From: Lachnospiraceae bacterium
GTDB lineage: Bacteria; Bacillota; Clostridia; Lachnospirales; Lachnospiraceae
Assembly (NCBI GenBank): GCA_017542245.1
Contig: JAFXXN010000078.1
Location: 1 to 64,000, forward strand
Length of the DNA: 64,000 bases
Direction of reading: 5' to 3'
Position 1 is the first letter of the stretch, and the number at the start of each line of letters is the position of its first letter. The notes under the pieces are model-generated. The model saw only the letters and a program-made list of their open reading frames with translations. It was not told the origin of the DNA and did no database searches. A program made the position numbers and the translations under genes. This document shows positions 12,135-47,100 of this stretch, piece by piece.

Positions 12135-12980
12135 TTATTCAATATATAAAACTCCAAGTGTGCCGGGACCGCAATGTGAAGACACTACACAGCCGGCTTT
12201 TGTGACAAGGACTTCTTTAAAATGATTAAGGCTTTCGAGGAGTCCTTTTACTTTAGAAACAATAGGTTCGGGACATTCGGAATGAGTTATAAAAACTCTC
12301 TTTGGTTTAGCAAGCTGAAGTAAAGGAAAGAGCTCTTCGGTATATTTAAGGATTACTTTTTCCAAGTTTCCACGGTATTTTCTGTCAGAGTGCATGGAAC
12401 CGTCTTCAACTACTATTCTGGGATGGAGTTTAAGAACCGAACCGAACATGGCAGCGAGTCCACTGCATCTTCCTCCTCTGTGAAGGAATACAAGAGTATC
12501 GATAATAAAGCTTGAGCGTACCTTGGGTCTTAACTTAAGGATTTCGGATTCGATAGTTTTGATATCCTTTCCTTCATGTGCCATCTCAGCCGCCTCAAGA
12601 ACCAGGAGACTTATACCTGTTGACAGGTTTGCGGAATCAATAACAACTATCCTGTCCGAAGCATTTAATGACTCGACAGCAAGCCTGCATACATTATTGC
12701 TTGCAGACATTAATGAAGAAATGGTGAATACTACAAGATCGTCACCGTTATCAAGATGTTTTTTGAAAACTGTTTCAACTTCCTCCGGTGTGGGAGCTGA
12801 AGTTTTAGGTGTAGAACCTGTGGAATTGGACCATTGATATATCTTTTCCGTCTGAATGTTTACACCGTCGAGGTATTCATCATTCCCCAAATAAACATGC
12901 AGCGGAATGATTCCAATATCATATTTTTTTATCAATTCCGGTGACAGATCACAAGTGCTGTCTGACAAAATCCTGACCAT
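12135..12980 (-). CDS. DegV family fatty-acid-binding protein
   Basis: A 281-residue cytoplasmic DegV protein. It begins MVRILSDSTCDLSPELI, the family amino terminus in which the Ser/Thr near the start of the lipid site is conserved. It continues with TSAPTPEEV, a Ser-containing FTISSLMSASNNV segment, and IDSANLSTGISLLV, which line the carboxylate-binding pocket in FakB-type proteins. FakB proteins present fatty acids to the kinase FakA for phosphorylation. No fakA gene is in the window. The minus-strand start has GGAGG eight bases upstream and a promoter at 13026-13054. It is convergent with the binding-protein gene across a shared terminator. Confidence 0.92.
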   Translation of the reverse strand: MVRILSDSTCDLSPELIKKYDIGIIPLHVYLGNDEYLDGVNIQTEKIYQWSNSTGSTPKTSAPTPEEVETVFKKHLDNGDDLVVFTISSLMSASNNVCRLAVESLNASDRIVVIDSANLSTGISLLVLEAAEMAHEGKDIKTIESEILKLRPKVRSSFIIDTLVFLHRGGRCSGLAAMFGSVLKLHPRIVVEDGSMHSDRKYRGNLEKVILKYTEELFPLLQLAKPKRVFITHSECPEPIVSKVKGLLESLNHFKEVLVTKAGCVVSSHCGPGTLGVLYIE

Positions 12981-16809: not shown

Positions 16810-16907
16810 TGTACTGCTTTGATAAATAGCAAATGTGGACAACTTATATTATTTTTGGGATTATCATATATATAGCAAGAGAAATAAACAATTATCGAGG
16901 AATAGCA

Positions 16908-17603
16908 GTGATAACAGAAGAAGGGTTGATCATTCAGAGGAAGAAATTTAAGAATATTCTGGTACTGACGGGAGATATTAATCCGCTAAAAGAAGACGAA
17001 GAACTCTTTGAAAAGTTTTATTATGGGCTTTCAAATTTTAGACGTGAAAAATGTAATCGGTTTAAAAAGAAGAACGATAAGATCAGATGTACGGGAGCCG
17101 GGATTCTTTTGGATTTAGGGTTAAAGGAATACGGACTTTGTGAAAAGAACAGTACCTACCTGTTGGGGAAAAATGGGAAACCATATATTGAAGGACATCC
17201 TGAACTCTGTTTTAACATTTCACATTCGGGAGACAGAGTTATGTGTGCTTTCGCGGATGTTCCCGTAGGATGTGATGTTGAATTTGTTGAAGAGGGAAAA
17301 AAACAGACTGATTCAATAGCAAAACGTTTTTTCACAGAGAATGAAAGAAGATTGATAGAAACGCAAAAATCCGATGACGGTATATTTTATACAATATGGA
17401 CCTTAAAGGAAAGCTATGTAAAATGTATCGGCGAAGGATTACAATGTCCGTTTGACAGTTTTTCAGTGGTGGACGATAATGGAAATATAGCTTTATCGGG
17501 AGATTGTGGGATTGAGCTTTTTTCATTTAAGGAGGATAATTACCGATTCGGAGTTGCATATGCAGTATCTGACCGAGCTTACAGTTATTTAGACAGAGAG
17601 TGA
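16908..17603 (+). CDS. 4'-phosphopantetheinyl transferase superfamily protein (Sfp type)
   Basis: It transfers phosphopantetheine from CoA to a serine of acyl or peptidyl carrier proteins. Sfp-type motifs are clear: FNISHSGDRVMCAFAD, the Mg-binding GCDVEFVE (Asp-x-Glu), FFTENERRLI and WTLKESYVKCIGEG with the catalytic-site Glu and Lys. The frame is open from an ATG at 16833, but that start has no ribosome site and would add a hydrophobic stretch foreign to the family. A GTG at 16908 has GAGG seven bases upstream and is preferred, giving 231 residues. NadE follows by 22 bases. The carrier-protein operon beginning at 21965 is an obvious possible client. Confidence 0.85.
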   Translation: MITEEGLIIQRKKFKNILVLTGDINPLKEDEELFEKFYYGLSNFRREKCNRFKKKNDKIRCTGAGILLDLGLKEYGLCEKNSTYLLGKNGKPYIEGHPELCFNISHSGDRVMCAFADVPVGCDVEFVEEGKKQTDSIAKRFFTENERRLIETQKSDDGIFYTIWTLKESYVKCIGEGLQCPFDSFSVVDDNGNIALSGDCGIELFSFKEDNYRFGVAYAVSDRAYSYLDRE

Positions 17604-20819: not shown

Positions 20820-20848
20820 TTGACGAATAATATCAAATTTGATAAAAT
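20820..20848 (+). promoter_or_regulatory. Sigma-A promoter for the secreted protein gene
   Basis: TTGACG (20820-20825), a 17-base spacer and TAAAAT (20843-20848). The TTG that opens the longer reading frame is the -35 box itself, which argues against it as a start codon. Confidence 0.7.
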
Positions 20849-20888
20849 TGTATATAACAAATTTATTAAAGAAAGGATGATGTACATC

Positions 20889-21800
20889 ATGAAAAAACTT
20901 TTCAAGGTATTGCTGTGCGGTCTGTTTGCACTTGGCTTTTTCGGACTGCTCGGAACTTATTCTTTAAAGGCTGAGGACAACACTATTTATGAGGATCTTA
21001 ACGGAGACGGAGTAGAGGAGTGCCTCACATATGATTTTAAGATCACCCAGATAAACGATGACGACTCAGAATACAGATTTGTCATAACTGAAGACGGTGA
21101 TAAGATTTATGTTGAAGATGAAATCATCAAAAAGTACACCGATGATGTTGAAACATCTCATTCTCTTCATGACGACTTGTTTGGACTTGGATGGGTCAAG
21201 GTACAGGTAGTTGATGCAAATCCCAAAGACAAGTATAAAGAGATTGTTGTCAGCTACTATCATAATGAGGATAATGTACTTTTAGCTGTCAAGGTTCTTC
21301 GCTATAAGAAAAAGAATAAATTGACAGTTGTAAGCGAAAGCGCTAACATTATGCCGTATTCATATGTTCCGAAGGCTCAGAAAAATAACAAGTATCTTAC
21401 AATAAGTACCAGTGTCTGGACTACATCATTAGGTTGCATCTGGCTTAAGCTTGACTATAAACTTACCAAGAATGGATTAATCCCTCAACTTAGCAAGACC
21501 GGTGTCTATACTGTAGCTCCTGAGTTTGCAGAGGATTATAAGCAGAGCAAGTTTAAGGCTGCAAGAACCATTACAGTATTCGGCGATAAGACATGTACCG
21601 AACCTATAGGTGAGATCGCTAAAGGTAAAAAGTTCACATTGAAGAAAGTTTTAATTACCAGTCTGGATGATGACGCTCCGTTCATAGCATATGTTAAAGC
21701 ATCATCAGGACTTAAGGGATGGATTTATATCAGTAATGAATCCGATGAATATGGACAGGCTGTAGATAAGATAGTTCAGGATCCTCGCTTCTTCAACTGA
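20889..21800 (+). CDS. Secreted protein of unknown function with a VCBS-like motif and SH3-like tail
   Basis: A 303-residue exported protein. The first 30 residues form a signal peptide (MKKLFKVLLCGLFALGFF, then SLKAED). An acidic calcium-loop-like segment, EDLNGDGVEE, follows as in VCBS/FG-GAP-type repeats. The central part is beta-rich without a family I recognise. The carboxy-terminal 75 residues (FGDKTCTEPIGEIAKG to GLKGWIYISNES) resemble a bacterial SH3-type domain. Three ATG codons at 20877, 20880 and 20889 lie in frame behind GAAAGG; 20889 gives the cleanest signal peptide, but the others are possible. A promoter and terminator of its own bracket the gene. Confidence 0.75.
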   Translation: MKKLFKVLLCGLFALGFFGLLGTYSLKAEDNTIYEDLNGDGVEECLTYDFKITQINDDDSEYRFVITEDGDKIYVEDEIIKKYTDDVETSHSLHDDLFGLGWVKVQVVDANPKDKYKEIVVSYYHNEDNVLLAVKVLRYKKKNKLTVVSESANIMPYSYVPKAQKNNKYLTISTSVWTTSLGCIWLKLDYKLTKNGLIPQLSKTGVYTVAPEFAEDYKQSKFKAARTITVFGDKTCTEPIGEIAKGKKFTLKKVLITSLDDDAPFIAYVKASSGLKGWIYISNESDEYGQAVDKIVQDPRFFN

Positions 21801-21871: not shown

Positions 21872-21900
21872 TTGACAGTTTCTTCATTTTGCTATAAAAT
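21872..21900 (+). promoter_or_regulatory. Sigma-A promoter of the acyl-activation/acyltransferase operon
   Basis: A perfect TTGACA (21872-21877), a 17-base spacer and TAAAAT (21895-21900); the overlapping TATAAA gives a 15-base spacer. It leaves a leader of about 60 bases before the first gene of the lipid-type cluster. Confidence 0.7.
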
Positions 21901-21964: not shown

Positions 21965-23887
21965 ATGAAATTTTATGAGAAATTATTGCTAAAACTGGAG
22001 AATGAAACACATTCCATGCAGACGGTATATAAGCATATGTGTGAGTTTTCCGATGAGATAGCATTTGAATACAGTAGGAACCTGATAGTATATAAGATTA
22101 CATATGCAGAGTGCAGGAGAGAAATACTTAGAATACATGACTATTTAAAGAGAAACACGCAAAAAGACGATGTGGTAGCCATTTCCATGGACAATTCGCC
22201 ACTGTGGGTAGAATGCTTCTGGGCAGTTCTTATGTCAGGATGCAGGGGGCTGCTGCTTTCTAAGAACATGACTGACAGGGTGTTCCTTAAGAGCTTAGAG
22301 AAAACAGGGTGCAGGTTGGTTTTGGGAGACCGCAATATTGAAGAGATAAGAACGGTTTCCTGCGAAGAACTAAAAAGTTACAGGCCTGACAGCGCCACTA
22401 TTACCGAACCGTCGGACGGCTGGGGAGATGAAATCATTCTTTCCACTTCGGCGACTACGGGAGAACCCGGATTATATGCATATACCGGCAAAGAAATATG
22501 TTGTCAGATATTAAACAGCGGGTATGTACTGAAAAATTGCCGGGATGTTTCAAGATTCTGGCATGGACAGTTCAGATTACTTGCTTTTTTACCGTTTTCA
22601 CATATTTTTGGGTTAACTGCATGCTATTTATGGTTTACGATTTTCGGAAGGACATTTGTATTTCTTGAGGATCTGGCTCCAACGACGATCATGAGGACAT
22701 GCAGGCTTCATAATGTAACACATATCATGGCGGTTCCGCTTTTATGGGATGCACTCGCAAGAGGAATAAAAGCGGAGGCAGAAAAGACCGGAGAGGCCGA
22801 AAGGCTTGAAAAAGGAATAAAGATCAGCTTGAAGCTGCAGGATAATTTTCCTGCACTTGCAAGATTTTTAGTTCCTAAGATGATGAAGAGTGTTCAGAAA
22901 AAAACCTTTGGAAAGGCAGTGCGTTTCTGCATCAGCGGGGGCGGAATCTGCAACAGCGATACCGGAAGAATTGTTAACGGATGCGGATATCATCTTGAAA
23001 ACGGATACGGAATGACCGAAATCGGTATAGCAAGCGTTACGCTGCACAAAAAAGCAAGCAAAAGAGACGGTTCTTCCGTAGGAAAAATGTTTCCGTCATA
23101 CTCCTACAGAATAAACGAGGAAGGTCATCTGCTGGTACGGGGAGACACCTGTTATTATGCAAGATATACCGACGGAAAGAGGATAGAAAGAAATAAGGAT
23201 GAATGGTTCGACACGGGAGACTGCTTCTTGGAACTTCCGGACGGAAACATGAAGATTCTGGGAAGATCGGATGATATTATAAACGGCGCTAACGGAGAAA
23301 GAATAAGCCCGGAGATGATAGAGGCGGATCTTGAACTGGATATGCCGGTCTGCGTATTTGAAACTGAAAAAGGACTGACGCTCCTTGTAGAAGCAGATGA
23401 GGGGGCAGGAGTTTTAAGTGACAGACGTGAAAAAATCATCAAGTCCGTTTCTGAATCCATAGAGAAACTGCCTTCAGCAATAAGACCGAGAAATATTCTT
23501 TATACTTACAGCAAGATTCCTCATTCACTCAGCTATAAAGTATGCAGAAAGGAAGTAATAGACTTAGTTCTCGGAGGAAAAACAGAGGTTTTTGATACGG
23601 AACAATTCCGTTCGTCCGATGGAGGAAGCGGGGAGGAAAAAGAGGTCATCAGTTTAGCCGACAGGATTGCAGGGATCATGCGGGAAACCTTGCGGATTAA
23701 AGAAGCAGTTAATATAGAAAGTGATTTCTTCGCCACATTAGGAGGAGACAGCTTAACTTATATGGATTACCTTAATTCCTTAGAGCAGGCATTTAACATA
23801 AAGATACCGCAGGAGATGACCGCAGGCTGCATTACGCCTGTTGCTACAGCAAAAATAATCAAAGATATCGTTAGAACACGAGGATAG
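21965..23887 (+). CDS. Adenylation domain fused to an acyl/peptidyl carrier domain
   Basis: A 640-residue two-domain protein. Residues 1-535 are an adenylate-forming enzyme with the P-loop-like STSATTGEPG (about 161), the A5 motif NGYGMTEIG (about 346), WFDTGDCF (about 414), hinge GRSDDIINGANGERI (about 433) and a late lysine in SYKVCRKEV (about 523). All elements for acyl or aminoacyl adenylation are therefore present. Residues 560-640 are a carrier domain with the phosphopantetheine serine in GGDSLTYMDYL (about 596). It would activate an acid and load it on its own arm. The substrate cannot be read from sequence. It is first gene of an eight-gene run; the next gene starts four bases after its stop. 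Confidence 0.88.
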   Translation: MKFYEKLLLKLENETHSMQTVYKHMCEFSDEIAFEYSRNLIVYKITYAECRREILRIHDYLKRNTQKDDVVAISMDNSPLWVECFWAVLMSGCRGLLLSKNMTDRVFLKSLEKTGCRLVLGDRNIEEIRTVSCEELKSYRPDSATITEPSDGWGDEIILSTSATTGEPGLYAYTGKEICCQILNSGYVLKNCRDVSRFWHGQFRLLAFLPFSHIFGLTACYLWFTIFGRTFVFLEDLAPTTIMRTCRLHNVTHIMAVPLLWDALARGIKAEAEKTGEAERLEKGIKISLKLQDNFPALARFLVPKMMKSVQKKTFGKAVRFCISGGGICNSDTGRIVNGCGYHLENGYGMTEIGIASVTLHKKASKRDGSSVGKMFPSYSYRINEEGHLLVRGDTCYYARYTDGKRIERNKDEWFDTGDCFLELPDGNMKILGRSDDIINGANGERISPEMIEADLELDMPVCVFETEKGLTLLVEADEGAGVLSDRREKIIKSVSESIEKLPSAIRPRNILYTYSKIPHSLSYKVCRKEVIDLVLGGKTEVFDTEQFRSSDGGSGEEKEVISLADRIAGIMRETLRIKEAVNIESDFFATLGGDSLTYMDYLNSLEQAFNIKIPQEMTAGCITPVATAKIIKDIVRTRG

Positions 23888-23890
23888 AAA

Positions 23891-25138
23891 ATGGGTAACA
23901 TAGTGTTATGGTTTGTAAAGATTACCGGTGTGATCCCGTTCCTCATCTGGTACAGACCGAAAAAGTATTATGAAGGAACAAAACCGAAATATACCGGGCA
24001 GGGTGAGATCCTGATAGCAAATCACACAACTATGATGGATTTTGCATCGATGATATATATTTACCCCTTTCACGTGATAAGAGTTTTAATGGCGGAGGTT
24101 TTATTTAAGAAAAAGCTTTGCGGATGGTTTATGACTCAGATAAAGGGGATAAGGGTAAACAGATATTCGAATGAAAGTACTGACGGATTATCGGAAGCCA
24201 TAGATACTCTTGAGAAAGGCGGAAGAGTCGGTATATTTCCGGAAGGAAGGCTGAATAAAGAAGGAAAAAATTACGGACCTTTGCTTAACTTCTGTCCGGG
24301 AGCGGCATATCTGGCATTAAAGACCGGAATGCCGATAAGACCTGTATATTTTAACAGCAAGACAGGATTCTTTAAAAGAACAAGCATGCTGATCGGAAAT
24401 CAGATCGATCTGAGAGAGATTTACGGGAATTCGACGGATAAAGAGAACGTTGCAAACGCTTCAAGATTCCTTAGGCAGAAGATGGAAAAGATGCGTGAGG
24501 ATTTAAAATTCCGCAACGAATATAAAGAAAAATCATTAATAACAAGATTTACTAAGTGGAGCATGCGTTTAGGCATGAAGATAGCTTTTCCATATAAGCT
24601 CCATATCGATGAAGATAATGACTGTCTGGAAAAAAATACGGATGCTGTCATTATTGCATCAAATCATACATGTATATATGATCCGCCGCTTCTGTGTACT
24701 GTATTTAAGAAAAAAAATGTGCATGTTTTAGCCGGAGAGATACTGTATGAACATCCAATGCTCGGCAGACTGTTAAAACGTCTGGGATGCATAAAGCTCG
24801 ACAGAAATACGCTGGATGTTGAGTCTTTTCATACAATGCAGTTTCTTCTTGAAAAGAATGAGAGTATAGGGATATTTCCCGAAGGAAAGCTTTCACCGGA
24901 TGGGGAACTCGGAGAGTTTAAACAGGGGGCACTTCTTGCAGCATATGCATTTAAGGCGGATATCATTCCGGTATATATTTCCAACAAAGCGAAGATGTTC
25001 AGGAAAAAAGGAAGGGATATATGGATAGGAAAGAGGATCAGCCTTTCAGGCGGCATGACGACAGGTAACATAAAAGAAGGATCGGAGCTTTTATATAAAA
25101 GCATCAATGACTTAAAAGAGAAATCAACGGAGGTATGA
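23891..25138 (+). CDS. Tandem PlsC-type acyltransferase protein
   Basis: A 415-residue protein with two lysophosphatidate-acyltransferase-like domains. Domain one (about 30-215) has the catalytic NHTTMMDF (H-x4-D) and the acceptor-binding FPEGRLN. Domain two (about 240-410) has NHTCIYDPP and FPEGKLS. Both keep the His/Asp pair, so both may be active. Such enzymes move acyl groups from acyl-ACP, acyl-phosphate or acyl-CoA onto glycerophospholipids or related acceptors. A hydrophobic amino-terminal stretch suggests membrane attachment. Two PlsC domains in one chain could acylate two positions in sequence. The next gene begins four bases after the stop. Confidence 0.9.
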   Translation: MGNIVLWFVKITGVIPFLIWYRPKKYYEGTKPKYTGQGEILIANHTTMMDFASMIYIYPFHVIRVLMAEVLFKKKLCGWFMTQIKGIRVNRYSNESTDGLSEAIDTLEKGGRVGIFPEGRLNKEGKNYGPLLNFCPGAAYLALKTGMPIRPVYFNSKTGFFKRTSMLIGNQIDLREIYGNSTDKENVANASRFLRQKMEKMREDLKFRNEYKEKSLITRFTKWSMRLGMKIAFPYKLHIDEDNDCLEKNTDAVIIASNHTCIYDPPLLCTVFKKKNVHVLAGEILYEHPMLGRLLKRLGCIKLDRNTLDVESFHTMQFLLEKNESIGIFPEGKLSPDGELGEFKQGALLAAYAFKADIIPVYISNKAKMFRKKGRDIWIGKRISLSGGMTTGNIKEGSELLYKSINDLKEKSTEV

Positions 25139-25142
25139 TCGC

Positions 25143-26591
25143 ATGGATTCATATTTCATGAACATTATGACCGAAGAAGAAAAGCAGAAGATGGTAAGGC
25201 TTTCCACGATTTCAGAACTGGAAAGATACTGTCTTGATAACTATAAAGACTTACCGGCAGTAAACTTAAGCAACAAAACGATCATCTATAGTGAATTATG
25301 GGATGAGGTAGCTTCTTATAGGGCACTGCTGGAAAAATACGGTGTTGAGAAAAAAGAGAATGTAGCTATCGTACTGCCCAACAGCAAGGAATGTATAGAA
25401 GCTTTTCTTGCGGTTACCACATACGGAGCCATAGCTGTTATGGTTCAGGGTGCAGGACCTGCGGCTTCTAAGGTGGAAGCCTGCACAATAGCGGGATGTA
25501 AAAAAGCCATATGCACGGAAGAACTGGAAGGCATACAGTGTATAGATCCTTCTACAGTCGATCTTTCAAAAAAGAAGGATTCGGAGGAACTATGTGCAGA
25601 CGATCCCGTGGCAGGATTTTTTACGGGCGGAACCAGCGGGACTTTAAAATGTGCATTGCTTTCAAATAAAGCAATTATGACAGGAGTATACAACGGAATA
25701 TTCTCCCCGGGACCTTCTTTCTATCAGAAGTATTACGGACTTATTCCGTTCTCTCATATTTTCGGCATGATCAGGAACCTGCTTACATGTTTCCAATCGG
25801 GAAGCCAGATAAGGCCATGCACTGATATGAACATGCTGGTTCAGGATCTTAAGGAATACAGGCCTACAATCCTTATACTTATCCCGGCACTTGCAGGAAT
25901 GCTCCTTAATCTTGCAAAGCTGTACGGACCGGAAGTATTCGGAGGAGAATTAAAGCAGATAGTTACCGGAGGAGCACCGCAGCCTACAGAGATAGCAAGG
26001 ATATTTATAGAAAAGTTCGGTATCGATTTTGTAAGCGGATACGGTCTGACAGAAACAGCCAACTTAGTCAGCGGAAGCGTAGACCTTCTTACTAAGGAAG
26101 GCTCAGTAGGAAAACTGTATGATTTCCAGGAGATCAGATTTGTAGATAACGAGATACAGTTAAAGGGAGATAATTTATTCCTTGAATATATCAATGATCC
26201 TGAAGAAACCAAAAAATCCTTTGTGGACGGATGGTTCAGGACAGGAGATCTCGGATATCTGGATGATGACGGATATCTCTATATTACAGGCAGGATAAAG
26301 AATCTTATATACTTTACAAACGGTGAGAAGATATGTCCTGAACAGATTGAGGCAAAAGTAGATAAGCTTCCGGGAGTAAAGGCTTCTATGGTATCAATGA
26401 AGCAGAATCTTTTCGGGGTCAGTGTGCTTACCTGTGAGATATTTACAGATCCGGCCGGAGATAAGGATAAGATCAGAAAGAGCATTGAAGACATAAATAA
26501 TACTCTTCCCGGATATTCACATGTTCAGCAGGTATTGTTCAGAAATGAAGATTTTCCCAGAACAGGTGCTATGAAGATCAGGAGGGATTAA
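25143..26591 (+). CDS. Stand-alone adenylate-forming enzyme (acyl-ACP ligase-like)
   Basis: A 482-residue ANL-superfamily ligase without a carrier domain. Motifs: TGGTSGTLKCALLS (phosphate loop, about 160), SGYGLTETANLV (about 298), WFRTGDLGYLDDDGYLYI (about 363), GRIKNLIYFTNGEKI (hinge, about 383), and a carboxy-terminal TGAMKIRRD carrying the A10 lysine. All catalytic elements are present. The gene for a discrete carrier protein starts one base after its stop, so this enzyme probably loads that carrier. GGAGG overlaps the end of the upstream gene. A fatty acid is the likeliest substrate in view of the neighbouring PlsC genes, but that is inference. Confidence 0.88.
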   Translation: MDSYFMNIMTEEEKQKMVRLSTISELERYCLDNYKDLPAVNLSNKTIIYSELWDEVASYRALLEKYGVEKKENVAIVLPNSKECIEAFLAVTTYGAIAVMVQGAGPAASKVEACTIAGCKKAICTEELEGIQCIDPSTVDLSKKKDSEELCADDPVAGFFTGGTSGTLKCALLSNKAIMTGVYNGIFSPGPSFYQKYYGLIPFSHIFGMIRNLLTCFQSGSQIRPCTDMNMLVQDLKEYRPTILILIPALAGMLLNLAKLYGPEVFGGELKQIVTGGAPQPTEIARIFIEKFGIDFVSGYGLTETANLVSGSVDLLTKEGSVGKLYDFQEIRFVDNEIQLKGDNLFLEYINDPEETKKSFVDGWFRTGDLGYLDDDGYLYITGRIKNLIYFTNGEKICPEQIEAKVDKLPGVKASMVSMKQNLFGVSVLTCEIFTDPAGDKDKIRKSIEDINNTLPGYSHVQQVLFRNEDFPRTGAMKIRRD

Positions 26592-26592
26592 A

Positions 26593-26835
26593 ATGACACA
26601 TGAAGAAGTACTTCAAAAAATGGGGGAAAGCTTGAAAAAAGTACGTCCGGAGACGGATTTAAGCAAAGCTGACGAAAGTACCCGTTTGACAGAAGATCTC
26701 GGCATGGATTCCCTTTCGATGTTATTGTTTGCACTTCAGTCCGAAAAAGATTTTGGAATACACTTTGAAAATGCAGGAACCTCCACGTTTAAAACAGTCG
26801 GAGACATATGCAGATATATTGAAGGAAAGCTGTAA
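26593..26835 (+). CDS. Discrete acyl carrier protein
   Basis: An 80-residue carrier protein. The phosphopantetheine attachment serine is Ser40 in LGMDSLSMLLF. The length, acidic helix pattern and helix 2 sequence fit acyl carrier proteins more than peptidyl carriers, which usually have GGDSL, the form seen in the two fused carriers of this operon. It differs enough from a fatty-acid-synthase AcpP start to suggest a dedicated role. AGGAGG precedes the ATG. It is packed between the ligase (one base) and the LRAT-like gene (three bases). Confidence 0.93.
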   Translation: MTHEEVLQKMGESLKKVRPETDLSKADESTRLTEDLGMDSLSMLLFALQSEKDFGIHFENAGTSTFKTVGDICRYIEGKL

Positions 26836-26838
26836 TAT

Positions 26839-27258
26839 ATGGGAGAACAAAAGGAACCGAATAAAGAGGAATGGGTTGTCCGGGAAATAAAAAAGGGTGA
26901 TATACTGCGAGTACATACAGGCCGTTTTTATCATTTTGGCATATATATAGGAGATGAAGAAGTCATTCATTTCGCAGGACCTGATATGTCAAGGCTTACA
27001 GATGCCGAAAGCGCTGTAGTCAGGCAGGATTCCCTCGCACATTTTTCCATGGGAAAACCTTTGGAAGTAAGAGACTTTTCACTAAAAGAAAAGATTAAAA
27101 AACGTTCGGTAAAAAAAATCATTGAAGAAGCAAAGAACAGTCTTGGAACAGGCGGATATGATATCATTTACAATAACTGCGAGCACTTTGTGAACCGCTG
27201 TGTTTTCGGGATAGCTTTTTCGACCCAGATTGAAGAACTACGAAAAATGATAAAGTAG
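26839..27258 (+). CDS. LRAT/PLAAT-like NlpC/P60-superfamily thiol acyltransferase
   Basis: A 139-residue protein of the lecithin:retinol acyltransferase family. The triad is visible: His32 in FYHFGIYIG, His44 in EEVIHFAG, and Cys114 in NNCEHFVNRC. The 12-residue His-His spacing equals that in LRAT (His60, His72) and PLAAT3 (His23, His35), and NCEHF is the family hallmark. In eukaryotes these enzymes take an acyl group from phosphatidylcholine onto the cysteine and pass it to retinol or an amine, or hydrolyse it. There is no signal peptide or membrane helix, so it should act in the cytoplasm, perhaps taking acyl chains from lipids or carriers. It is translationally packed with the carrier gene. 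Confidence 0.85.
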   Translation: MGEQKEPNKEEWVVREIKKGDILRVHTGRFYHFGIYIGDEEVIHFAGPDMSRLTDAESAVVRQDSLAHFSMGKPLEVRDFSLKEKIKKRSVKKIIEEAKNSLGTGGYDIIYNNCEHFVNRCVFGIAFSTQIEELRKMIK

Positions 27259-27269
27259 GGAGTTTTATC

Positions 27270-28871
27270 ATGCATAAGAAACAGTGGCAGGCGGTATGCG
27301 GTTTTATAGTAGACGGCTGTGAGTCTGTAGCGGATTCCGGCCGGACTATGAAAGACCTGTACAGAATTATCACGGAACAGAAGGATTCGGCTTTGTTCTG
27401 TGTTGAAAGAAACGGACATACCATTCCTGTCAGAAGAGATGAGTTTCACAGAAAAACAGTTTCTGTCGCAAAAAGAATCCAGGAAAATATCGATGAAAGC
27501 CATAAACTGATCTGCCTTCATATGGAAAGCGGGTTCGAATGGGCGGTAATTTTCTGGGGAATACTGATGTCGGGTCATATTCCTGTAATTTTCGATCCGA
27601 AGAATGAACTGTTTTACTATCGAAATCTTCCGAATGCGGAAGAAGCATATTGTATATCAAGAGAGAAAAACTATCCGAAGGCAATTGAGCCGGAAATACT
27701 GTTAGAAGATCCTATTGAGATGGATGCTGCATTCTTTGACAGCTCATGGACTGATGAAGTGGTCTTTATCAGTAAGGATTCTTCTCAGAAAATCAGAGGA
27801 ATTATATATAACGGTTATACCTTAAGCGAACAGGTTTTAAGATTAAAAAGAGTATACAGATACAACGCTGCTATGCTATACCCGCCTGCATTTGGCAGAA
27901 TGAAGCTGCTCTTGGGACTTCCTCTGTATGATTTCTTCGGATTTGTTATGGGCATGCTGTTATATCCGCTATTTGGAGGCGAGGTATATTTAAAAAGCAG
28001 TGCAGAAAACGGCACCGATATTTTAAAACGCTGTAAAGATTCTTCCGTTACTCATATGTGCATAGACGGAAAGACATGTAATTACATATCCGAGGCAATA
28101 AGCCAAAGGATAAAAAAGAACTTCCCGCGCCATTACAAACATTTAATGGGATGGCTCACGGGAACTGAAAGGATAAATGATTTCAGGATCCTTTCAAGGT
28201 ATGCCGCCATAGCTTTAAAAATCAAAAAAGTTATTTTAGGTAACAATCTCAGATGTATCCTGTCAACGGATGAAAACATGAACGGATATGTCCCGAGAGC
28301 TTTAAGTCAGCTTGGAATATACTTTGGTAAAGGGTACTGTAATACAGAGGCGGGACTTGCCACGATGGAATTATCACCGGATCCCGCATTCAGGTCCAAA
28401 AACAGTGTGGGTACAGTACTTGACGGTATCAGTGCCAGGACGGATGAAAACGGTTTTCTGATATTTAAAAGTGCCTGTTTTGAAAGATGCCGTTTGCTCG
28501 GCAGCAAAGAGAAGCTGGCCGATACTGTAAAAATTGAGAGAAAAACGTCGATAGATGCGAGTAAAAGAATTCATATAGAAAAGACTTCGGCAGACCAAAA
28601 CGAGTCTGACGTAATAACCGATCCAAAGCTGATCATAAAAGTACGTGATCTCTATGCAGCCGTATTAAACAGACCCAAAGAGATGATTGGAGAAAATATG
28701 GATTTCTTCTCCGAATTAGGAGGAGACAGCCTGACATATTTCCTGCTGCTTCAACATATAGAAGTAACATTCGGGGTAAACATTCTGCCTGAAGACAGGA
28801 AATATATGATAACAGTCAGATATGCAGCGGAAACGCTAAAAAATTATCAAATAACGGAGGCTTCAAAATGA
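27270..28871 (+). CDS. Degenerate adenylation-like domain fused to a carrier domain
   Basis: A 533-residue relative of the operon's first protein. The adenylation-like region is eroded: the usual Ser/Thr/Gly phosphate loop is replaced by SKDSSQKIRGII (about 168), the A5 motif reads KGYCNTEAG, and the carboxy-terminal subdomain with the hinge and catalytic lysine is essentially missing. The carrier domain is intact, with phosphopantetheine Ser487 in GGDSLTYFLLL. It is unlikely to adenylate; it may be a scaffold that presents a chain loaded by another ligase. The gene itself is not a pseudogene: the frame is clean and it overlaps the next start by four bases (ATGA). Confidence 0.8.
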   Translation: MHKKQWQAVCGFIVDGCESVADSGRTMKDLYRIITEQKDSALFCVERNGHTIPVRRDEFHRKTVSVAKRIQENIDESHKLICLHMESGFEWAVIFWGILMSGHIPVIFDPKNELFYYRNLPNAEEAYCISREKNYPKAIEPEILLEDPIEMDAAFFDSSWTDEVVFISKDSSQKIRGIIYNGYTLSEQVLRLKRVYRYNAAMLYPPAFGRMKLLLGLPLYDFFGFVMGMLLYPLFGGEVYLKSSAENGTDILKRCKDSSVTHMCIDGKTCNYISEAISQRIKKNFPRHYKHLMGWLTGTERINDFRILSRYAAIALKIKKVILGNNLRCILSTDENMNGYVPRALSQLGIYFGKGYCNTEAGLATMELSPDPAFRSKNSVGTVLDGISARTDENGFLIFKSACFERCRLLGSKEKLADTVKIERKTSIDASKRIHIEKTSADQNESDVITDPKLIIKVRDLYAAVLNRPKEMIGENMDFFSELGGDSLTYFLLLQHIEVTFGVNILPEDRKYMITVRYAAETLKNYQITEASK

Positions 28872-30235
28872 AGAAACTAAAGGGATGGAAACTGTTTTTA
28901 TTTTCAATGGCAGGTTTCGGACCAAACTTAATGATGACTTTGGTAACAGGATATTTAAATGATGCGTTGCTTGCACCGGACGGAATAAGCCCGGCAAAGA
29001 CTATCACGGGAACCATATTGATCTCAGCAGGACTGGGCAGTGTACTGTTTTTTATTGCCAAGATAATCGACGGAGTTATCGATGTGCCCCTTGCATATAT
29101 AAACGACAAGATGCACTGCAAGCTTGGAAGAAGAAAATTGGGTATACTTCTCGGCTGGATTCCAATGGTACTTTCCTTTATACTTATCTGGAATCCCGGA
29201 ATATTCAGCGCAACAGGTGAAGTAGGAACTACAATCGTAGAAGCATTATTGCTTATAATCTTTTACTCGAGTTATACTATGTGCCTTGTATCGTATTACG
29301 GATCGTTCTCAATAGTTGTGGAAACTGAGAAGGAGAGACTCCGTTTATCACATTTTAAAGCATTTTTCGATACAGTACAGTATTGCTTTGCATATGCACT
29401 GTTCCCTTCACTGCTTTTAACTCTTCTCGGAGGAAAGGAAACAGGAGCAATCTCAAGTGCATTATTAAAACTTTCACCTCTTATGCTTACAATGCTGATT
29501 CCTGTTTTACTGCTTAAGGAAGAAGACGATAAAAGCGTTAACCATGAAGTTCCTTTGGTAGAGAGCATTAAGCTCTCATTTAAGAATAAATCTTTCAGAG
29601 CATGGCTTCTTACACTGCTCATGATGCATATGGGACTCATGCTGTTCCTTACGGGAATTGGAACCACCATACCGGACAGCCTTATGGGAATAAGCGGCTG
29701 GCAGGTAACGGTAATGAATTCGGCAGCATTTGCACCTGTTCCGTTAATGCTCCTGCTTTTCAACTATATTAAGAAAAAACGCGGAATGAGAGTTTCCATT
29801 CAGACTTCACTCATTGCATTTGCACTGGCTATGTTTACCTTTGCAGCTGCATGGAAGAGCCTTTGGAACAGTCCTACGATCAGCCTTATAATAGGCCTTA
29901 TTGCTTCAACCATAGGAAGTTATGCAATAGGAGTATTCTTCTCATCGTCATATTACTTCCCGTCCCAGATAGCTGCACTGGAGATATCCGAAAAGAAGAT
30001 AGATCATTCAGCTATGTATTTCGCTGTACAGGGTCTGGTAACACAGGTGGCAGGAGCTATAGCGGTAAATCTTATCTATATGAACCTTATTGCTTCACCA
30101 ATGGAAGTTTTGGGAAAAGAAGGCGGACAGTTCTTCCTGATCCCCGTTATAGCAGGCGTAATGATGATCCTCGCATTCTTCTGCACATTTAAGATGGCCA
30201 AGGATGGCATTTCCGAGAAAGGAAAGGTGAAATAA
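28868..30235 (+). CDS. MFS_2 (GPH/MelB-type) transporter
   Basis: A 455-residue transporter with about twelve membrane helices. It has the GPH-family features AKIIDGVIDVPLAYINDK and KLGRRKLGILLGWIP after the second helix, where MelB has its cation-site aspartates and the GR(x)RP loop. Most bacterial members move sugars, but the same superfamily contains MFSD2A, which carries lysophosphatidylcholine. In an operon of acyltransferases and carrier proteins, a lysolipid or acylated product is a reasonable cargo; this is inference. Start and stop overlap or abut the neighbouring genes. Confidence 0.85.
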   Translation: MKKLKGWKLFLFSMAGFGPNLMMTLVTGYLNDALLAPDGISPAKTITGTILISAGLGSVLFFIAKIIDGVIDVPLAYINDKMHCKLGRRKLGILLGWIPMVLSFILIWNPGIFSATGEVGTTIVEALLLIIFYSSYTMCLVSYYGSFSIVVETEKERLRLSHFKAFFDTVQYCFAYALFPSLLLTLLGGKETGAISSALLKLSPLMLTMLIPVLLLKEEDDKSVNHEVPLVESIKLSFKNKSFRAWLLTLLMMHMGLMLFLTGIGTTIPDSLMGISGWQVTVMNSAAFAPVPLMLLLFNYIKKKRGMRVSIQTSLIAFALAMFTFAAAWKSLWNSPTISLIIGLIASTIGSYAIGVFFSSSYYFPSQIAALEISEKKIDHSAMYFAVQGLVTQVAGAIAVNLIYMNLIASPMEVLGKEGGQFFLIPVIAGVMMILAFFCTFKMAKDGISEKGKVK

Positions 30236-30838
30236 ATGTTGTTTGTTTGGCTTTTCAAGCTTACAGCATGTTTACCTTTAAGACTGTTCTTCCGGGTAAA
30301 AGTAATAGGTAAGGAGAACAAATATAAGGGGCCCTGTATTCTGGCCATGAATCACGGAGCTGCCATGGATGCAACCCTTGTAAATACATTATACCCTTTT
30401 AAAAGGATATATATGCTTACAACAAAAAAGCTTTTTAACTGTTCAAGATTACATCAATGGGAGCTGTGGCAGATGGGATGCAGACCGTCCATGTCTCCTT
30501 CGGAAGATATAGAAACTATGACTGCTATAGCAAATAATCTAAAAAAATATGAGTTGATAGGCTTTTTTTCAGAAGGAAAGATACATAACAGCGTCGGGAA
30601 TTTTATGGGAGGAGCGGTAATGCTCGCTCTAAGGACGAAACTTCCTTTGATCCCTATATATATAAAGACGGCTCCGTTCTATAAGGGCGGAACAAGGATC
30701 ACATTCGGTGAGCCTATAGAAGTAAATACTAAAGAGTATCCTACGGCTAAGGATATAGAAGAGATAAATGATATCCTTAGATCGAGAGTAATACGGTTAT
30801 CATTAACTAAAGGAGGAAAAAGAAATGGGTTACAATGA
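30236..30838 (+). CDS. Small PlsC-type acyltransferase
   Basis: A 200-residue single-domain lysophospholipid-acyltransferase-like protein. It has an amino-terminal hydrophobic helix (LFVWLFKLTACLPLRLFF), the catalytic NHGAAMDATL (H-x4-D; the usual Asn-His is kept) and SEGKIHNSVGNFMGG, where the family FPEG has become FSEG. It is the third PlsC domain in the operon. Its ATG follows directly on the transporter stop, and its own 3' end overlaps the next gene by 14 bases. It probably transfers an acyl chain to a lipid-like acceptor at the membrane. Confidence 0.88.
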   Translation: MLFVWLFKLTACLPLRLFFRVKVIGKENKYKGPCILAMNHGAAMDATLVNTLYPFKRIYMLTTKKLFNCSRLHQWELWQMGCRPSMSPSEDIETMTAIANNLKKYELIGFFSEGKIHNSVGNFMGGAVMLALRTKLPLIPIYIKTAPFYKGGTRITFGEPIEVNTKEYPTAKDIEEINDILRSRVIRLSLTKGGKRNGLQ

Positions 30839-31358
30839 TGGTTATCAAAACAACCAGGCATATCAAAATGATCAGAGGTATCAGAACAATCAGGGATTTC
30901 AGAATAATCAGGCATACCGGAATTATCCTGTAGCAAATCAGGGAAATAATAATTTCCAGAATAATTATCAGAATAATTATCCTCAGCAGGGCGGCTATGC
31001 AGACCCTATGGGATATAACGGACAGCAGGGCATGTATGCAGATCAGCAGGGCATGTATCAGGATGAGCAGGAATATCCCATCAATAAGCCCGGTACCGGC
31101 ATAACAAGTATGATTTTCGGTATCTGTTCCGTATCTCTATGGGAAGTACCTTTCATTACATCAATCCCTTGTATAGTATTCGGAATTATTGCACTTGTTC
31201 TCCAAAAAAAGCGTTGGATAACAAATCCCAGATTCCATGGCTTTTATAAAGCAGGAAAAGTTACCGGTATCATAGGAATAATCATTGCATCTATTTATAC
31301 TCTTATCTATATTTTTGCAGTAGGAGCATTGGCAACAACACTCAGAAGATGGTACTAA
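30825..31358 (+). CDS. Gln/Asn-rich small membrane protein (DUF4190-like)
   Basis: A 177-residue protein. Residues 1-85 are an extreme Gln/Asn/Tyr-rich tract with imperfect repeats of the form YQNNQ, then GMYADQQ repeats. Residues about 88-177 contain two hydrophobic helices around KKRWITNPRFHGFYKAGK, resembling the DUF4190 arrangement. The low-complexity tail should be cytoplasmic or surface-exposed depending on topology, which I cannot settle. AAAGGAGG lies in the end of the preceding acyltransferase gene, so the 14-base overlap is real coupling. The function is unknown. Confidence 0.78.
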   Translation: MGYNDGYQNNQAYQNDQRYQNNQGFQNNQAYRNYPVANQGNNNFQNNYQNNYPQQGGYADPMGYNGQQGMYADQQGMYQDEQEYPINKPGTGITSMIFGICSVSLWEVPFITSIPCIVFGIIALVLQKKRWITNPRFHGFYKAGKVTGIIGIIIASIYTLIYIFAVGALATTLRRWY

Positions 31359-44119: not shown

Positions 44120-47100
44120 ATGAGCGAGAAAAACAAGATACTGGGAATTTGTCTTGCAAAGCTGCAGGACAGAATAAGAACCGAATATTTAAACGCCATA
44201 AACAGGGCAGCATCTGTTTCGGGGTGGAAAGCGGTTACCTATAACAGCTTCAGAGATTTCAGAAAGAACGATCTTTGTGTTCAGGGATCAAAATCCATAT
44301 ATAATATAGTTAACTATAATGACATAGATGTACTGGTCGTATTTCCGGAGAGTATGAACCGCAGTGAGATAGCGGATGACCTTATTGCATTTGCACAGTC
44401 GAAGGGAAAGCCGGTCATCAGTATAGGTCCTAATAAGCCCGGATGTTTTTCAATCATCAGGGATTATGATGCAGGCTTCAAAGATCTTATGAACCATGTA
44501 ATAGATGTACATGGGGCGAAAAAGACATTTTTTGTCGGCGGTTTTTCTGAGGATGATGAGAGAACGGTCTTAAGGGTAAAAGCTTACAGAGAAGTCCTTG
44601 AGGCACATGGATTCGCATTTAATGAAAATATGGTCGATTACGGGGATTATAAGGATGAGATCATAAATAATGTGATGGACAGACTTATGGGCAGGGGAGA
44701 TGTTCCTCAGGCCATCTTCTGCATAGATGACAAGACAGCCATTCAGGTTTGTGAGAAGCTTTCAGAATTTGATCTCAAAGTTCCCGATGATGTGATAGTT
44801 ACCGGTTTCGGCGGTATTCCGGCAGCTTACTATTATCATCCGAGCATCTCATCGTGTTCAGATGATGTAGAAGTGTTTGCACAAATGGTAATTCAGGCGG
44901 CAGAGGCTGCATTAAGCGGTGAACCTCCGAAAGTTTATAAAAATCCGTTTAAGGCAAGGATCAGAAGATCATGCGGATGTGACATGAGGTCATATCTTTC
45001 AGCCGGAAGACGTGAATATGACTTGGCAGCAGCAAAGGCAGCAGGAATCTGCGTTATTGAGAACGAGAATGAAGCCGGCAAGACAAAAGGCTCCGAAAAT
45101 ATAGAGACGGCAGAGGCAGCTGAAAAAACCGAGCAGCAGAATATTGCCGGTGGGGAAAAGGCCAAACAGGAAGATACCAAACAGGAAGATACGATATTCA
45201 TGCCGGATGCCGTAAAAGACGGAACGGTTATCATATATAAAAAGTATCCCGAAACAGAGGATGCTGAAGGACAGAATAAAGAGGAAACAAACGAGAGTAA
45301 AAGTGAAGAAAACGCCGATGCACCGGCTGACACAGAAATTACTCCGTCCGATATAAAATTCGGTATAAAACCCGAAGAAATACCGGAATACACACCGGAT
45401 AAGCTAAAAGAGGCAGCAGCTTCCAGCGATCCCAGGCTTGCAGAAGCCATGAAAGGCGGATATGACATATCGTACGGATCCGGCAGATGTGACAGGGCAG
45501 CAGATGCTAAATCAGATACCGCTCCCTGTGACATAAGCAAAGAAAAAGATCAGACCGGCAGCACCGGATCAGGTGAATCTGCAAATAAGGAATACTCTGC
45601 AGAAGAACAAATCCACGGGATGGCAAAGATATATCCTTCCGATATTTTTAGGAAAAGAGCAGAAGAAAGAACCGGAGAAAATATTACCGGTTGTGAGAAT
45701 AGCAAAACAGCAAGCGAAAACAACTCCTCCGACCCCGAGGTTGATAAGGCCGCTAAGCGTGCCATGGAAGTGGCTGAAGACAAGCGGTGCATAGGCGGTC
45801 ACGGAGAAGCCAGATTCCGTTCGGGAAATCATGTAGCATATATCTATAAAGAACTGGATGAAATAGAGCGTAGAGAAGACTCTACACTTGCCTGGATGGA
45901 CAGAATGCTTGAGCTGGGCGATATAGAAAGCATCTGTGACAACATCGCCAAGAGGCTTCCAAAAGGTTCAGCACTTTATATATTTACCAAGCTTATTGAT
46001 TCCGGTTTTGATATAGACGGATTCGTTACTGATAACCTAAGTGAGGAAAGCCTCACGGTTATAGAGTCGAAAAACGGAGCCGGCAAAGAATCGGGACATA
46101 TAGAATATTCCGAGAAACCGACCGTAAAAGTAAAGCATCTGGTTAAAGACTATATAATGTCGGACATAGACGGTTCGATGATGGTATTTAACCCTGTGTT
46201 TATCGGTGATTTCGTGTGTGGTTATTATATGATAAGAACCGCACAGCTGAATGACATCAGGAATAACACAAAGCTTCTATGTACCGGACTGAACATGGTA
46301 TTCAGGTTCCTGGCAAATCAGAACCGCCAGCAGCAGATGCTCTACAATATAGAAAATTCTACATTTGTGAGCTCCATGACCGGTCTTCCTAACCTGAAAG
46401 GACTTACGCGCTGGTTCGAGACCTTCTCGGCAGAACCCGAGAACCATGCTAAGGCACTTAACATAAGCGTATTCTCGATGCCGAGATATACATACATATA
46501 CGAAAATTACGGATTAAATGAAATAGAAGAAAGCGTCCGCTTTATAGTGGACAAGATAAGAAGCACCTGTCCGAGAACAAGTTTCATAGGACAGTTTGCT
46601 GAAGGCGAATTTGTTGCCATTGACAGTGTCAGACCCGAAGATACCCGCGAGATAGTTGAGTGCGAGGACGGTACCGAAGATACGGTAAATGTCAATATGG
46701 AAGAAATCTTCCACAGATTCGATAAGATCATGGAAGAACATAACCGTATCAGTACCAAAGAATACTTCTTAGAGGTTAATTACGGAACTTCTGTTGTAGA
46801 AGAAGGATGGAATTCTTCACTGGAAAGCATGGTACGTATGGCGGTAAGTGATATGTACTTAAGAAGACTTCGCCAGGGCAGGGCTCCTGTAATAAGGGAT
46901 AAGACCTTTGACAGAGAGTACTTTGCCACATTCGAACTTCTGGTAGACAGAAATCTGTTCCGTTACCATTTCCAACCCATAGTTGACGCGGGCACAGGAA
47001 AGATATACGCATACGAAGCACTCATGCGTACCGGCGGCGGCATTTCGATGTCACCTTTAGATGTACTTGAGATAGCTAAGAATGCACAGAGACTGTATGA

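Follow-up and report, generated by a model that had tools for sequence, protein, structure and literature searches.

A compact operon of acyl-activating, carrier and acyltransferase genes with an LRAT-like enzyme in a Lachnospiraceae bacterium

Relation to known acylation systems

In Gram-negative bacteria, the Aas-LplT system joins acyl-ACP (acyl carrier protein) synthetase activity, a PlsC-type acyltransferase and a transporter of the major facilitator superfamily (MFS) in one unit, and preformed chains are activated and then put on a lysolipid (as outlined in PMC11416262). In a Lachnospiraceae bacterium we find an operon whose genes suggest broadly the same way of working, but which does not belong to that system. 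It lies within the first 64,000 nucleotides of contig JAFXXN010000078.1 (GenBank assembly GCA_017542245.1), a stretch that we call the window, and encodes adenylation proteins, carriers, PlsC acyltransferases, an MFS_2 transporter and an enzyme of the LRAT/PLAAT type (proteins A to H, Table 1). The gene cluster is real and its order is conserved: many clostridia and bacilli carry related sets, often with fatty-acid kinase genes close by.

The likeness to Aas-LplT concerns the combination of activities and, as suggested by the genes, the activation of preformed chains ahead of their transfer. The differences are in the parts. The operon has separate proteins, three PlsC domains, its own carriers, an MFS_2 transporter, an LRAT enzyme and a truncated adenylation-carrier protein, and the clusters of relatives add fatty-acid kinase (Fak), PlsX, hydrolases and 4'-phosphopantetheinyl transferase (PPTase). 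Protein B scored far below the cut-offs of the NCBIfam models for the fused Aas protein (97.7 vs 1221 for PRK08633, and 43.4 vs 886 for PRK08043), while the transporter G matched PF13347 and, weakly, four GPH-type NCBIfam models, with no LplT among them. An initial annotation of this DNA had proposed that preformed chains are activated, held on carriers and put on an acceptor, with a logic like that of Aas-LplT; this idea is supported in part.

The Fak (FakA/FakB)-PlsX pathway by which Gram-positive bacteria use exogenous fatty acids is a second parallel, as relatives encode FakA, a DegV-type protein and sometimes PlsX in or beside the cluster. The window operon itself has neither Fak nor PlsX, however, and the cluster adds adenylation-carrier proteins, dedicated carriers, PlsC pairs, LRAT and MFS_2.

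PLAATs possess a C-terminal membrane helix. Unlike mammalian PLAAT/HRASLS and LRAT, protein E shows no such helix on a hydropathy scan, and the cluster LRATs adjoin, or are fused to, carrier-protein machinery and mostly carry Gln as third catalytic residue in relatives. A further comparison is with LnsA, a bacterial permuted NlpC/P60 enzyme with a role in acyl-chain movement, which together with LnsB makes N-acylated lipoproteins in staphylococci (as described in PMC7387801). Yet LnsA has a predicted signal peptide and a partner, LnsB, encoded elsewhere, and the accessible part of that account names no carrier, adenylation or PlsC genes (PMC7387801). As the initial annotation had stated, we found no description of this gene set in a literature search that left most subscription papers out of reach, which is not proof of its absence from print.

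Genes and proteins of the operon

Eight genes of the plus strand follow one another from 21965 to 30838, with successive intergenic gaps of 3, 4, 1, 3, 11, -4 and 0 bases. Their domain order, according to Pfam, is adenylation-ACP (A), PlsC-PlsC (B), adenylation (C), ACP (D), LRAT (E), truncated adenylation-ACP (F), MFS_2 (G) and PlsC (H). The tight packing on one strand between these coordinates (gaps of -4 to 11) agrees with the initial annotation, but the end that it had set at 30838 does not hold, since the unit runs on into a ninth gene (30825-31358). L015 (7.8e-32) and L017 (3.6e-21) have a homologue of this gene at the corresponding position, and L016 does not; these are the loci of the three closest relatives fetched, and in all three an H-type PlsC gene keeps its position after MFS_2. 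The rest of the predicted inventory was recovered: three carrier domains (PP-binding on the genes starting at 21965, 26593 and 27270, with the DSL serine in all three), three PlsC domains on two proteins (two on 23891 and one on 30236, each with NH-x4-D), an MFS_2 transporter at 28868 and, among the Pfam matches of the eight proteins, no ketosynthase, condensation domain, reductase or thioesterase. The G+C content of the operon (0.41 vs 0.39-0.42 in four flanking stretches) gives, by this measure, no sign of recent foreign DNA. Promoter-like matches such as the one upstream of A (Table 1) were not enriched in the region (27 vs a mean of 33.4 in shuffles).

Motifs of the GYGxTE/TGD/GR type are present in A (GYGMTE, TGD and GRSDDII, besides GGDSL) and in C (GYGLTE, TGD and GRIKNLI), and absent from F. 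In A the P-loop region is unusual in the alignment. Three adenylation-type proteins, one of them "eroded", had been proposed; the count stands, whereas the eroded one, F, has lost the C-terminal adenylation subdomain yet keeps a full open frame, and its AMP-binding match is weak (37.9 bits vs a cut-off of 29.9). Its counterpart in L015 shows the same loss, while that of L017 is an intact protein of 636 aa. The F proteins of the window, L015 and L017 form one clade (100/99) separate from the A proteins, in a tree of 33 of the 81 A proteins, three F-type proteins and three C proteins in which several rows are of unusual composition. A decaying pseudogene was considered for F and rejected as the simplest reading, because the subdomain is missing in L015 too, where the carrier is likewise intact, and the frame has not been interrupted. 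Judged by its sequence, F resembles a carrier mounted on an inactive adenylation scaffold whose reading frame has stayed open in two species, and as such it poses a clean question in its own right. The PPTase of the window probably serves all carriers, as it is the sole PF01648 match found in the genome.

The transporter G is nearest, among solved sequences, to MFSD2A (1.6e-7) and then MelB (1.5e-3), while comparison of its structure model (pLDDT 86) ranks MelB slightly above MFSD2A, and the modeled structure does not decide the substrate. D68, D72 and T137, equivalent to Asp55, Asp59 and Thr121 of the MelB cation site, are kept in 33 of 33 aligned MFS_2 proteins, whereas the place of the sugar-binding Asp124 of MelB is taken by M or L in all 33. 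Some relatives (L065, L066, L082, L062, L024, L023 and L086) have MFS_2 proteins with up to ~200 extra C-terminal residues of membrane-embedded look, for which no further Pfam match was found in the two checked (L065 and L066). A fusion of MFS_2 to PlsC, which would echo LplT-Aas, was considered for these proteins of 610-650 aa and rejected: the extra part is hydrophobic and gives no PlsC match.

Table 1. Features of the operon and its surroundings in the window
Feature	Position	Strand	Evidence
Sfp-type 4'-phosphopantetheinyl transferase, three genes between it and the operon	16833..17603	+	PF01648 67.2 bits
Promoter-like site in the 164-base gap 5' of A	21872..21900	+	TTGACA-17-TAAAAT, 11/12 consensus bases; consensus match only
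A: AMP-binding domain and C-terminal acyl carrier domain, 640 aa	21965..23887	+	PF00501 132.6 bits, PF00550 35.2 bits
B: two PlsC domains in one protein, 415 aa	23891..25138	+	PF01553, two stretches, 147.8 bits; NHTTMMD, NHTCIYD
C: stand-alone adenylation enzyme (acyl-CoA/acyl-ACP synthetase-like), 482 aa	25143..26591	+	PF00501 157.3 bits, PF23562 21.7 bits
D: free-standing acyl carrier protein, 80 aa	26593..26835	+	PF00550 25.3 bits; GMDSL
E: LRAT/PLAAT-type thiol acyltransferase, 139 aa	26839..27258	+	PF04970 94.9 bits
F: adenylation domain without C-terminal subdomain, with intact carrier, 533 aa	27270..28871	+	PF00501 37.9 bits, PF00550 33.9 bits
G: MFS_2 (MelB/MFSD2A family) transporter, 455 aa	28868..30235	+	PF13347 92.5 bits
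H: single-domain PlsC acyltransferase, 200 aa	30236..30838	+	PF01553 61.7 bits; NHGAAMD, FSEG
Ninth gene: small membrane protein, two predicted transmembrane segments, 177 aa	30825..31358	+	14-base overlap with H

Recurrence of the gene set and the LRAT clade

An alignment of four A proteins was searched against a collection with one genome per species, and the best 80 of 307 relatives were kept. These 80 loci were picked by similarity to A, without use of their neighbors; L015, L046, L060 and the window were seed rows whose neighbors had already been seen. Loci L011, L012 and L013 share their contigs with L015, L046 and L060, respectively; each pair was counted once. Together with the window these make 81 loci, of which 64 extend at least 6 kb beyond A on the downstream side and were used for the counts; the other 17 were dropped for short flanks. 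Gene calling was profile-led, with a homologue defined by E < 1e-4 and > 22 bits; since the profiles were built from the loci themselves, counts are of homologues and not of curated families, with representatives checked by Pfam.

Downstream of A and on its strand, PlsC was found in 61 of the 64 loci, ACP in 52, LRAT in 46, a C-type adenylation gene in 34 and MFS_2 in 31. When ~10 kb on either side and either strand is considered, these figures are 61, 52, 46, 34 and 32, respectively. The partners outside this set rise more in the wider count: DegV from 38 to 47, FakA from 35 to 47, hydrolases from 36 to 45, PPTase from 20 to 27, PlsX from 6 to 17 and GT2 from 3 to 14. DegV and/or FakA occur within ~10 kb in 48/64 loci (47/63 without the window, whose DegV gene at 12135-12980 lies ~9 kb upstream of the operon, on the other strand and outside it). 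Among the 77 loci with more than 500 bases beyond A, the gene next after A is PlsC in 64, MFS_2 in nine and neither in four. The genes are not scattered in relatives: the set recurs in a conserved order.

Four architectures can be told apart. The first runs A, PlsC, PlsC, C, ACP, LRAT or LRAT-PPTase, hydrolase, DegV, MFS_2, FakA and hydrolase (e.g. L056 and L085); the second A, PlsC, PlsC, ACP and LRAT with PPTase, hydrolases, GT2, PlsX, FakA and DegV near, often divergent (L032, L055 and L076); and the third A, long MFS_2, PlsC, PlsC, C, ACP and LRAT (L065, L066 and L082). The fourth is that of the window (A, PlsC-PlsC, C, ACP, LRAT, F, MFS_2, PlsC), which is complete in L017 with an intact F, complete but for LRAT in L015, and complete but for F in L016. 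No Fak genes were seen in clusters of this fourth type within the stretches examined.

As for the identity of the partners, a DegV protein from one relative has matches to Fatty Acid Kinase B1 chains, the best of them at 6.4e-17, and scores better (to 7.7e-26) against uncharacterised DegV proteins. The FakA-like protein of a relative carries PF13684, PF21645 and PF02734, and the two relatives checked (G262 and G075) have several FakA copies, the one in the cluster included. One cluster hydrolase gave an esterase match of 4.3e-14 and a monoacylglycerol lipase match of 1.1e-5. GT2 and PlsX are found together in 14/81 loci. Besides these two, a deacetylase-like gene is present in L032, L058, L059, L072 and L075 (PF01522 in L032 and L059, the two checked), and a fragment of one at the end of L031. 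The four GT2 proteins scanned (L041, L063, L032 and L031) have four C-terminal hydrophobic segments each.

Protein E is well above the PF04970 cut-off of 24.3 bits, has the permuted NlpC/P60 fold (structure model examined with VIA-align), lacks a transmembrane segment on the hydropathy scan and contains the full triad that had been claimed for it (H32, H44 and C114). A CHH triad, with His as third residue, is described for LRAT/PLAAT enzymes (PMC10318531). In the 49 cluster LRATs aligned, H32 and C114 (in NCEHF) are invariant, while position 44 is H in three (window, L016 and L017), Q in 37, A in six and E in three. Fifty cluster LRATs were found in all; L054 was omitted here and in one other alignment, its frames starting upstream of the likely starts. 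A carrier gene precedes LRAT in 44 of the 50 loci, and LRAT is fused to PPTase in 19 of them (L054, L056, L060, which equals L013, and 16 others), with both Pfam matches over cut-off in the three checked (L013, L056 and L054). Seven more loci have a free PPTase. These fusions sharpen one question, namely whether LRAT uses acyl-ACP.

LRAT-domain proteins over the Pfam cut-off occur in 38/392 genomes of the order. We considered LRAT as a general partner of A and rejected this: in 29 other loci (L095-L123, with ~1.5 kb flanks) none has A, ACP, PlsC or MFS_2 adjoining the LRAT gene, so the link between A and LRAT holds for the cluster clade and not for LRAT at large. In a tree with 25 of these outside clostridial LRATs (L120-L123 gave no match to the LRAT profile), all cluster LRATs fall on one side of a 99/91 branch. 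The operon family gives a genomic context for a carrier-linked clade of bacterial LRAT/PLAAT enzymes.

The host genome (4.72 Mb in 203 contigs, 97% complete and 8.6% contaminated) encodes elsewhere one PlsY, one PlsX and six PlsC-domain matches, so the acyltransferase genes of the operon are additional. Its sole FakA match, C146:247106, is on the same contig, ~216 kb from the operon. Relatives of A with E <= 1e-40 were found in 4/24 genomes of the genus, the own genome included and one cut by a contig end; with E <= 1e-80 they were found in 2/398 genomes of the phylum, again including the own genome, with at most three candidates scored per genome. The host has close relatives in animal guts.

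Some neighborhoods stand apart. In L018-L021, an A-type adenylation-carrier gene directly follows a gene for 486-515 aa (checked in L018 and L019, where it encodes a GlgA-type starch synthase), and no PlsC was recognised downstream; an acyl carrier ligase here stands next to glycogen synthesis. L063 has an AP_endonuc_2 TIM barrel and an AMP-binding enzyme in one frame of 863 aa beside its Fak cluster, and L087 has a similarly long frame.

Possible functions of the operon

With moderate confidence, we read the operon as a carrier-based module for acyl salvage and lipid re-acylation. The domains, catalytic residues, packing and conserved order are all read at the level of sequence, as is the association that relatives show with fatty-acid kinase, PlsX, hydrolases and PPTase. 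A and C would activate preformed fatty acids as acyl-AMP and load carriers, A its own and C the free-standing D, and F would add a third carrier on its dead adenylation scaffold. The PlsC domains of B and H may then take the chains off the carrier and attach them to a lyso- or monoacyl-lipid, which G, a putatively cation-coupled transporter, would bring across the membrane as such or as its breakdown product. In E, the Cys114-His32 pair could form an acyl-enzyme and swap acyl chains between membrane lipid and carrier D, in either direction. Our inferences are all substrates in this scheme, fatty acids included, the nature of the acceptor lipid, which way the transporter works and the acyl exchange between LRAT and carrier. 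Such a module could explain how Clostridia and Bacilli, many of them from animal guts, use or remodel ready-made acyl chains.

Several observations weigh against this reading. LRAT is missing in 18/64 loci and in the nearest relative, and A occurs without PlsC in 3/64 loci, two of which were checked and have a GlgA-type starch synthase as neighbor. L021, one of these three, belongs to the 48, with PlsX, DegV and FakA within 10 kb on the opposite strand. By Pfam, the window operon has no Fak genes, so that the link to Fak belongs to the wider family. Finally, the occurrence of GT2 and deacetylase genes in some loci hints that different branches may use different acceptors.

A bolder proposal concerns the LRAT clade. 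Its members could pass acyl chains straight from a membrane lipid to the phosphopantetheine thiol of a dedicated ACP, or back. Charging or discharging a carrier in this way would need no ATP and, together with adenylation enzymes, PlsC and MFS_2, would make a complete deacylation-reacylation cycle, built on dedicated carriers, in gut-associated Clostridia and Bacilli. We regard it as speculative and rather unlikely.

The alternative that survives best, possible although not probable, is that the operon is a biosynthetic cluster for a special acylated molecule (a glycolipid, an amino sugar or a signal) exported by MFS_2, in which PlsC adds O-acyl groups and LRAT an N-acyl group taken from ACP, as in Nod-factor synthesis. 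The Nod-factor set consists of a deacetylase, a glycosyltransferase, a carrier and an acyltransferase. Dedicated carriers with a PPTase fused or near fit this idea, as do the patchy distribution in the phylum and the loci with GT2 and PlsX, some with a deacetylase-like gene. Moreover, a papain-like enzyme that takes acyl groups from ACP has a precedent in BtrH (reported in PMC10318531). The window operon, however, has no glycosyltransferase, deacetylase or condensation domain in its Pfam tables, and the FakA, DegV and PlsX partners in relatives point to bulk fatty acids.

In a further alternative, the operon assimilates or detoxifies free fatty acids by storing them on glycerol backbones and MFS_2 carries a non-lipid such as glycosylglycerol or a sugar. 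The many hydrolases near the clusters, one esterase/monoacylglycerol lipase-like, the MFS_2 model being closest to MelB and the naming of a ruminant or horse sample in 35/80 record titles of relatives are in line with it, but the equivalent of MelB Asp124 is kept in none of the 33 transporters, and the window operon contains neither hydrolases nor Fak; we regard this explanation as doubtful. Very improbable is lipoprotein or protein acylation, with LRAT acting like LnsA and the remaining genes repairing leftover lysolipid: LnsA belongs to the NlpC/P60 superfamily with permuted LRAT/YiiX-like proteins as nearest structural relatives (as given in PMC7387801) and in L012 (same contig as L046) the cluster follows a prolipoprotein diacylglyceryl transferase gene, but E shows no transmembrane segment on the hydropathy scan whereas LnsA has a predicted signal peptide, the Pfam tables hold no LnsB-like/CPBP family in a search confined to the operon proteins, and the adjacency to ACP and the PPTase fusions are left unexplained.

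Two further proteins of the window deserve mention. Upstream of the operon, 20820-21800 encodes a protein of 326 aa with one hydrophobic segment near the N-terminus and no Pfam family over cut-off, and 44120-48805 encodes a protein of 1561 aa that combines Peripla_BP_3 and EAL domains.

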